Shown piece by piece: positions 13,462-15,126 of a DNA stretch of 64,000 nt (its first letter is position 1; the number at the start of each line of letters is the position of its first letter). A program made the position numbers and the translations under genes. The stretch is taken from positions 1 through 64,000 of the forward strand of contig CALGTK010000187.1 of assembly GCA_937904325.1 (NCBI GenBank). Direction: 5' to 3'. The notes beneath the pieces are model-generated. The model had not been told where the DNA came from and ran no database searches. It saw only the letters and a program-made list of their open reading frames with translations. Source of the DNA: an uncultured Planctomyces sp. GTDB lineage: Bacteria; Planctomycetota; Planctomycetia; Planctomycetales; Planctomycetaceae.

Positions 13462-15126
13462 CTACCCCTGACTTTCGTCATTGTGAGGCGTCTCTTTCCC
13501 TTCGTCCAACGCTGATGCATCGACGCCGCGGCTTTCCATAATACCCTCAACAGTTGCTCTCACACCGGGCAGGTGTGTTGCCAACTGCTTGAAAGCTGGT
13601 CGCGACACACTGATGACATCCGTGTCGATTCTGGCGACGACAGCAGCTGATCGAGGTTTGTCAGAGACCAGAGCGATTTCACCGAATACTTCTCCTTCGC
13701 CGATCGTTGCCACTGTGTTCCCATTGACCACGATTTCTGCCTCGCCTTTGACGACTGAGTAAAGCTTGTCGCCAAAGTCGCCCTGATCGAATATTTTTTC
13801 GCCTTGATGAAAGTGTTCCTGGATAATTGACTGGTCCTGGAAGATACGGACCTGAGTGATATCTCGCGGTAGAAGTAGATCGAGAAACCAGTCGACTCCG
13901 ATTCGAATTTGACGATCGAAGCCTGGGAACTTTGACAGATAAACGGCCCGCCAGAAGATCCAGGCAACGATACCTTTCAGCTTGAAACCAAAGACTTCTG
14001 CGACAGCTGACATTCGACCGAGCGATGCCAGCTTCCCGAGGCCCGTAAATCCAAAGCGTTTCATCTTCTTGCCGCGAATGGTTGCCAGGATGTTGTTGGC
14101 ACAGGTCTTCGCCTGGCGAAGGGCGTGCTGTGCGGTCGGTGGCGAAGTAATGCCGTCAACCTGCGGCACGGCAGCGCAGTCACCCAGGGCCCAAAGACCA
14201 GGGTGATCAGGAACGTCCAAGTATTCCGTGACGACAATACGACCTCGGTCCAGTTCGCATGGCAGACTGGTGACAAGGTCGTGCGGAGCTGATGGAACGG
14301 TCGTGACGATCGTTCGTGACGGAACAACGACCGACTCTTTGGTCGCTTTGTCCATGACGATAGCTCCGTCGCCAGAGACTGCTCGCAGGCGAACGTTGAG
14401 CTGAACTTCAACTCCACGGCTTTCAAGAATTTCCTGCGCATAGACAGCGAGACTTTCTCCGAGTTCGGGCAGGATTCGACCAGCACTCTGGAGCAACACA
14501 CAACGAATCTCTTCGCGTTTGATGCACGGGTAGGCTTTGATAGCGCTTGTCAAAAAGTCGTTCAGTTCGGCGATACATTCGACACCTGAAAATCCACCAC
14601 CGCCGACGACGAATGTGAGGAGGCGTTGTCGTTCTTCCGGGTCTTTCTCAATAGCTGCTTCTTCCAGAACACCGACTGCCTGGTTACGAAGACGCAACGC
14701 GTCGCCCAGATATTTGAACGGAATCGCGTGTTCCCGCATACCAGGCACAAGGTCGTAATTCAGCTTCGTGCCCATTCCAACGACAAGGTGGTCGTAATCA
14801 AGGACGATTGGCCGTGGGACGTATTCAGGTGCCAGTTGAACCGTTTTCTTCTCGATGTCGATTTCTTCGATCAACCGCGTGTAAAGCTGAGCGTGTTTGG
14901 CCATCCGGCGAATCGGCGTGATGCAGTGCAGAGTCTCGATCGTGCCGGAGATGACTTCCGGTAGAAACGGCTGGAAAACGATATAATTCTCGTTGCTGAC
15001 AATCGTGACTTCGATGTTCGCCCGCTCTTCTGCGGTCATCGCTTTGCCAAGATACATAGCAGTGTAAACGCCAGCGAAACCGCCGCCGAGAATGAGAATT
15101 CTTTTTTTACCGTCTGATGATGCCAT
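13462..15126 (-). CDS. ndh: Type II NADH dehydrogenase fused to a cyclic-nucleotide-binding domain
   Basis: A 554-residue protein. Residues about 1-400 are an FAD-dependent pyridine-nucleotide oxidoreductase of the NDH-2 type: the FAD-binding GGGFAGVYTA, the second nucleotide motif VVGGGGFSGVECIAEL, and LWALGDCAAVP at the FAD C-terminal motif. Such enzymes pass electrons from NADH to quinone without pumping. Residues about 435-540 form a Crp-like cyclic-nucleotide fold (FDQGDFGDKLYSVVKGEAEI) with a phosphate-binding cassette FGEIALVSDKPRSAA that keeps the Glu and Arg expected for cAMP/cGMP contact. The fusion suggests allosteric control of respiration by a nucleotide second messenger. It is transcribed divergently from rodA. 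Confidence 0.88.
   Translation of the reverse strand: MASSDGKKRILILGGGFAGVYTAMYLGKAMTAEERANIEVTIVSNENYIVFQPFLPEVISGTIETLHCITPIRRMAKHAQLYTRLIEEIDIEKKTVQLAPEYVPRPIVLDYDHLVVGMGTKLNYDLVPGMREHAIPFKYLGDALRLRNQAVGVLEEAAIEKDPEERQRLLTFVVGGGGFSGVECIAELNDFLTSAIKAYPCIKREEIRCVLLQSAGRILPELGESLAVYAQEILESRGVEVQLNVRLRAVSGDGAIVMDKATKESVVVPSRTIVTTVPSAPHDLVTSLPCELDRGRIVVTEYLDVPDHPGLWALGDCAAVPQVDGITSPPTAQHALRQAKTCANNILATIRGKKMKRFGFTGLGKLASLGRMSAVAEVFGFKLKGIVAWIFWRAVYLSKFPGFDRQIRIGVDWFLDLLLPRDITQVRIFQDQSIIQEHFHQGEKIFDQGDFGDKLYSVVKGEAEIVVNGNTVATIGEGEVFGEIALVSDKPRSAAVVARIDTDVISVSRPAFKQLATHLPGVRATVEGIMESRGVDASALDEGKETPHNDESQG

Follow-up and report, generated by a model that had tools for sequence, protein, structure and literature searches.

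Can an NDH-2, a type II NAD(P)H:quinone oxidoreductase, take a signal directly from a cyclic nucleotide? This question is raised by one gene in a stretch of 64,000 nucleotides (hereafter, the window) from an uncultured Planctomyces sp. The initial annotation of this DNA had reported an NDH-2 fused to a cyclic-nucleotide-binding domain (CNBD) at positions 13462-15126, and this exact span was borne out, on the minus strand, by Pfam matches and by conservation within the genus. The open reading frame starts with an ATG at 15126, ends with a stop codon at 13462-13464 and encodes 554 amino acids, and the plus strand of the same interval contains many stops. All features of the gene described below lie on the minus strand of the window.

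The fusion gene and its oxidoreductase part

Three domains of the encoded protein exceed their Pfam cut-offs. The flavoprotein domain Pyr_redox_2, with two dinucleotide-binding domains (residues 9-339; 14110..15102; E 2.9e-36), is also supported by comparison of the structural model with NDH-2 structures. It is followed by the membrane-anchor domain NDH2_C (residues 363-422; 13861..14040; E 4.7e-10), in which the model has two helices (residues 385-399 and 403-418 by DSSP), and by the CNBD itself, cNMP_binding (residues 437-516; 13579..13818; E 4.3e-18, 65.5 bits against a cut-off of 27.5), for which a separate domain model was obtained. A further C-terminal helix is predicted by DSSP at residues 520-532 of the model (13531..13569), and we take it to occupy the lid position of CNBDs. 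The AlphaFold2 model of the whole protein, built with 45 sequences, had a mean pLDDT of 92.3 and a pTM of 0.87. None of the NCBIfam models reached its cut-off, the best being TIGR03169 with 112.7 bits against 310. The gene is flanked by a convergent sulfatase gene and a divergent FtsW/RodA gene, and no operon partner for it was found within the window.

The full 554-residue protein is present in five of the six genomes of the genus, own genome included, and the sixth genome is only 59% complete. The four other copies are 88-95% identical to the window protein. Among the five copies, pairwise pN/pS was 0.04-0.07 for the NDH-2 part, 0.04-0.20 for the CNBD and 0.11-0.39 for the 38-residue C-terminal tail; the low values in the CNBD and the higher ones in the tail indicate that the former is under selection and the latter is drifting. 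An assembly joint or a frame artefact was ruled out by the genus-wide conservation together with the low pN/pS. Among the loci read, at least 15 of 392 genomes of the phylum, own genome included, carry a CNBD fusion. The NDH-2/CNBD fusion is a genuine, conserved and widespread variant of NDH-2. The own genome (approximately 8 Mb, 99.87% complete) has a single NDH-2-like protein by sequence search, and complex I is also present, judged by one NuoH-type PF00146 match.

The model matched NDH-2 structures with Z scores of 40-49, its first 410-430 residues aligning with bacterial NDH-2s at Z 47-49 (rmsd 1.6-2.0). The bacterial enzymes, namely those of C. thermarum (4NWZ/5KMR) and S. aureus (5NA1), B. 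subtilis YjlD (9A63) and mycobacterial Ndh (9MQY), have the same fold (Z 44-49). The next structural family, FSP1/SQR, followed at Z of about 35, and this ranking rules out an SQR or FSP1 identity. The sequence and fold features of NDH-2 are present: the two dinucleotide-binding domains, the fold, the catalytic Glu, the quinone motif and, by the NDH2_C match and the two predicted helices of the model, the C-terminal membrane helices. The catalytic Glu183 lies in the second nucleotide-binding motif, GGGFSGVE (residues 176-183; 14578..14601), and corresponds by motif position to E172 of S. aureus NDH-2 (PMC5299459). It is Glu in all 108 tabulated rows of the family (109 proteins, with L119 left out of the table). 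The quinone-site motif AQHALR (residues 332-337; 14116..14133) has the form AQxAxR, which is listed as a variant of AQxAxQ (PMC5299459). The catalytic Glu, the quinone motif and the NDH2_C anchor are common to the window protein and the bacterial NDH-2s, whereas the latter have no CNBD.

The residue tied to NADH specificity is a further point of difference. Gln213 (14488..14490) of the window protein aligns with Glu198 of C. thermarum NDH-2, such that the acidic residue of NADH-specific NDH-2s is absent. Blaza et al. held Glu198 responsible for the poor use of NADPH and cited a Glu-to-Gln change at this position that shifts the specificity of A. tumefaciens NDH-2 towards NADPH (PMC5220320). 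Because Gln213 replaces this residue, the window protein likely accepts NADPH and perhaps prefers it. Of the earlier designation as an NADH dehydrogenase, the assignment to the NDH-2 family stands, and the NADH label has become doubtful. Residue 213 is His in 37 and Gln in 12 of the 49 core fusions, with no acidic residue among them, and it is Glu in nine of the ten Rhodobacterales-type fusions. His or Gln also occurs in 22 of 34 CNBD-less relatives, so this substitution does not track the fusion. The frequency of His or Gln at this NAD(P)H position (alignment around residues 211-217), in fused proteins and many CNBD-less relatives, hints at a large and little noticed group of NADPH-using NDH-2s.

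The cyclic-nucleotide-binding domain and the spread of the fusion

Folded alone, the CNBD reached a pLDDT of 85.9, and its model was closest to the cGMP-bound CNBD of the M. loti channel (Z 17.4, rmsd 2.1, 102 aligned residues), followed by HCN, PKA and CRP domains (Z 15-17). It shares fold and cassette with the CNBDs of PKA-R, PKG, CRP and the M. loti channel, whose effectors are a kinase inhibitor, a kinase, a DNA-binding domain and a channel, respectively; in the window protein the domain is joined to an oxidoreductase. The phosphate-binding cassette (residues 481-497; 13636..13686) contains Glu483, Arg492 and Ser493. The residues that had been noticed at the outset are indeed present, FGEIALVSDKPRSAA forming residues 481-495, and both ligand residues, Glu483 and Arg492, are among them.

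The family set came from 80 loci found by scanning GTDB genomes and from a search of the phylum; together these yielded 109 usable proteins: 60 with a CNBD, 15 with a CNBD plus a C-terminal extension and 34 without a CNBD. L031, whose gene is split into two ORFs and has unread bases, was excluded from the alignment, the tree and the cassette counts. L119 is on the tree and outside the tabulated groups, which hold 74 of the 75 CNBD proteins (49 core, 10 Rhodobacterales-type and 15 extended fusions).

Loss of the cassette in homologues had been named beforehand as an observation that would speak against the proposed gating. Among the core fusions, Glu483 was found in 47/49, Arg492 in 45/49 and both in 45/49; both were also kept in 7/10 Rhodobacterales-type and 9/15 extended fusions. 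Retention holds for most of the core set, and in some branches the loss named beforehand did occur, one or both residues being missing in 4/49 core, 3/10 Rhodobacterales-type and 6/15 extended fusions (13/74 in all). The Arg is lost in several Verrucomicrobiota (L094, L103, L112, L113 and L117), and both residues are lost in two Pirellulales (L068 and L080). In the core set, Gly482, Glu483, Ala485, Arg492 and Ala494 rank in the top 13 of 81 CNBD columns by conservation. Most Rhodobacterales-type fusions have other residues in place of the small one at 485 and of Ala494, and by sequence their cassette counts as degenerate, those with Glu and Arg included.

In a quick tree of the NDH-2 part, for which a root was not inferred, all 75 CNBD rows fell into one branch (SH-aLRT 97). 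The lone CNBD-less row inside it, L030, has a long branch, and constraining the 75 rows to a pure clade was not rejected (p-AU 0.379). Moreover, distances in the NDH-2 part and in the CNBD were correlated (r 0.74), with none of 500 permutations as high. These patterns are most readily explained by a single fusion event, after which both parts were inherited together, with or without horizontal transfer. The fusion was found in about a dozen phyla in all: Planctomycetota, Verrucomicrobiota, Acidobacteriota, Methylomirabilota, Rokuibacteriota, Chlamydiota, Chloroflexota, Ignavibacteriota, Calditrichota, Lindowiibacteriota, Cyanobacteriota/Melainabacteria and Pseudomonadota, as assigned by record titles and by lineages on the tree; titles of MAGs can be wrong. 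One record (L058) is titled as a Bordetella parapertussis MAG, a title that looks wrong because its genome (G412) was drawn as belonging to the same phylum as the Acidobacteria genome G417.

Several side observations concern the architecture and distribution of the family. Pfam scans of four of the extended fusions found CBS domains in L018, L083 and L094 and an FHA domain in L074 (Herpetosiphonaceae). These domains follow the CNBD in the protein, as if the enzyme were collecting regulatory modules. The fusion gene at two Acidobacteriota loci is accompanied by another ORF, separate from it, that matches the CNBD portion of the query (L217, 2208-2763 of the reverse strand, in a minus frame; L218, 4411-5335). 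In addition, R. sphaeroides is described as having no NDH-2 (PMC4859585), and the related species C. ovatus and C. johrii (Cereibacter; L092 and L121) carry the fusion.

Cyclases in the own genome and beside the fusion genes

The own genome contains eight class III cyclase domains. Residue roles in these and in the neighbouring cyclases described below, including the Lys/Thr pair, follow what we take to be the usual assignments for adenylate cyclases. L034, which has a Cache sensor, carries all the residues of an adenylate cyclase; the substrate residues of six others are atypical, and L037 is truncated at the end of a contig. Five of these cyclase-like proteins (L036 and L038-L041) have a common atypical motif, DFQGD plus FGPVVN, in place of the usual Lys/Thr pair. 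Only three other CNBD proteins were found in the own genome, and no CRP-type protein was among its PF00027 matches. Two of these are L002 and L003, a Ser/Thr kinase that contains a CNBD and a protein that combines two CNBDs with a C39 peptidase and an ABC domain. A 750-residue open frame on contig C156 (L126:1-2250) contains several 4Fe-4S domains along with two CNBD segments, and possibly represents another CNBD-controlled redox protein of this genome.

Flanks of up to approximately 6 kb on each side of the loci were searched with a profile of the eight own cyclases. A class III cyclase was found within this distance at 11 of 77 fusion loci, against 0.70 expected (P 2.5e-10), and with one family collapsed, nine lineages had a cyclase neighbour (P 5.8e-8). 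The expectation was derived from the cyclase count and size of each genome, and the Poisson test takes genes to be placed uniformly and counts related genomes as independent. Per-genome cyclase counts covered 50 of the 61 fusion loci from the GTDB scan; the other 11 (L044, L089, L093, L094, L100, L103, L108, L112, L113, L117 and L119) were read for neighbours, had none, and enter the raw comparison only. In that comparison, 11/88 fusion loci and 0/51 CNBD-less loci had a cyclase neighbour (p 0.007).

The loci with a cyclase neighbour are L049, L053, L056, L057, L063, L065, L067 and L070, where the neighbours were confirmed by Pfam (PF00211), and L144, L145 and L146, which belong to one Planctomycetota family and were placed by PF00211 hits. 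At L057 and L070, the stop codon of the cyclase and the start codon of the fusion overlap by 4 nt (ATGA) on the same strand. At L063, the fusion, a small ORF and the cyclase follow each other on one strand, and at L056, 237 bases separate a divergent pair of cyclase and fusion. The cyclases of L144-L146 and their fusions are arranged tail to tail, and at L049, L053, L065 and L067 the two are 1-5 kb apart. In three genomes, namely G128 and those that contain L056 and L070, the neighbour is the sole cyclase found; for L070, this status follows from a single hit in the genome and the Pfam match of the neighbour. Glu483 and Arg492 are intact in all 11 fusions with a cyclase neighbour, and the Lys/Thr pair typical of adenylate cyclases is present in eight of the 11 neighbouring cyclases, L049, L057 and L065 being the loci without it.

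The window gene (L155) has no cyclase within approximately 6 kb, so the evidence from adjacency comes only from its relatives. It is one of 66 among the 77 fusion loci with no cyclase neighbour. None of eight Acidobacteriota fusions added later (included in the 77) had a cyclase within approximately 6 kb; in G577, a genome of this set, the only cyclase lies approximately 10.7 kb away on the same contig. The presence of any cyclase in the genome did not differ significantly between CNBD-bearing (70/77) and CNBD-less (25/32) members (p 0.11). Leaving out the Rhodobacterales type gave 65/67 (p 0.005), a comparison made post hoc. In line with the degenerate cassette of this type, a class III cyclase was absent from 5/10 Rhodobacterales-type genomes versus 1/40 others (p 0.0006); because these ten genomes are one clade, the absence represents one or a few events.

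A putative cyclic-nucleotide-gated oxidoreductase

Taken together, the domain layout, the conserved cassette and the neighbouring cyclases make it somewhat probable that the protein is an NAD(P)H:quinone oxidoreductase which associates with the membrane, pumps no protons and has in its C-terminal domain a sensor for a cyclic nucleotide. The most likely ligand would be cAMP from the class III cyclases of the cell. On the best reading of the sequences, the CNBD would bind cAMP, or less likely cGMP, and regulate the oxidoreductase. Either nucleotide would be held at Glu483 and Arg492, and its binding would move the C-terminal helices; since the CNBD comes directly after two presumably amphipathic membrane helices, this would alter how the protein docks to the membrane or how the quinone pocket is reached. 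In PKA, EPAC and cyclic-nucleotide-gated channels, the ligand relieves inhibition, which is the usual logic of CNBD effectors. By analogy, and with low certainty, the ligand would most likely relieve inhibition here as well and raise flux. cAMP would then drain reducing equivalents into the quinone pool without proton pumping, and NADPH may be among them because Gln213 suggests that it is accepted.

Other roles of the domain have to be weighed against this reading. PF00027 domains bind varied ligands, and Ser493, which follows the Arg as in CRP, does not decide between cAMP and cGMP. Both points count in favour of a different ligand regulating the enzyme, which could be a lipid, a redox-linked ligand, cGMP or some other cyclic nucleotide, as do the three neighbouring cyclases that lack the adenylate Lys/Thr pair; with that pair present in the other eight, we regard such a ligand as improbable. 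It is also unlikely, if somewhat easier to credit, that the CNBD is a structural or dimerization module that has lost cyclic-nucleotide binding. Broken cassettes in retained domains (L068, L080 and several Verrucomicrobiota) would fit such a module, and a precedent exists in the family 2B encapsulins, in which a domain of the PF00027 fold likewise sits on an unrelated protein and is reported not to bind. However, that report ascribes the loss to divergent site residues (PMC12407261), and the site columns of the core fusions are among the most conserved of the domain; nor does a structural role predict neighbouring cyclases. The position of the CNBD after the membrane-anchor helices means that docking could be the regulated step, and a cyclic nucleotide might accordingly control where the protein is located, how stable it is or which partners it binds, and not electron flow. 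No evidence for a partner or for localization was found, and we give this option very little weight.

That a second messenger can gate an enzyme of the NDH-2 class is illustrated by plant NDB1, an external NADPH-specific NDH-2 which is switched by Ca2+ through EF-hands (PMC4587368). NDB1 likewise combines an NDH-2 with an additional second-messenger sensor, and its use of NADPH is as predicted for the window protein. The sensors differ: the EF-hand domain is inserted within NDB1, whereas the window protein has a C-terminal CNBD and no EF-hand family among its Pfam matches up to E 0.1. A description of the NDH-2/CNBD fusion was not found in the open-licence full-text literature, outside of which most subscription papers fall; the architecture may well be listed in domain databases.

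A wider scenario can be put forward tentatively, although we would sooner doubt it than rely on it. A single ancient invention, now spread over about a dozen phyla, would have produced a cAMP-gated NADPH (or NAD(P)H):quinone oxidoreductase, genetically linked in several lineages to its own adenylate cyclase as a direct circuit from messenger to respiration. CBS and FHA domains would have been added later, and the sensor would have degenerated where the cyclase was lost, for example in Rhodobacterales.

In the known bacterial examples, cyclic nucleotides act mainly via transcription factors, and NDH-2 is treated as an enzyme controlled by its substrate and its expression. If the fusion protein is gated by a cyclic nucleotide, it would allow the quinone pool and the NAD(P)H balance to be adjusted directly and rapidly. 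The overlap of a cyclase gene with the start codon of the fusion would make such a circuit testable as a two-gene construct. If true, these enzymes would be a bacterial counterpart of the Ca2+-regulated NDB enzymes of plants.
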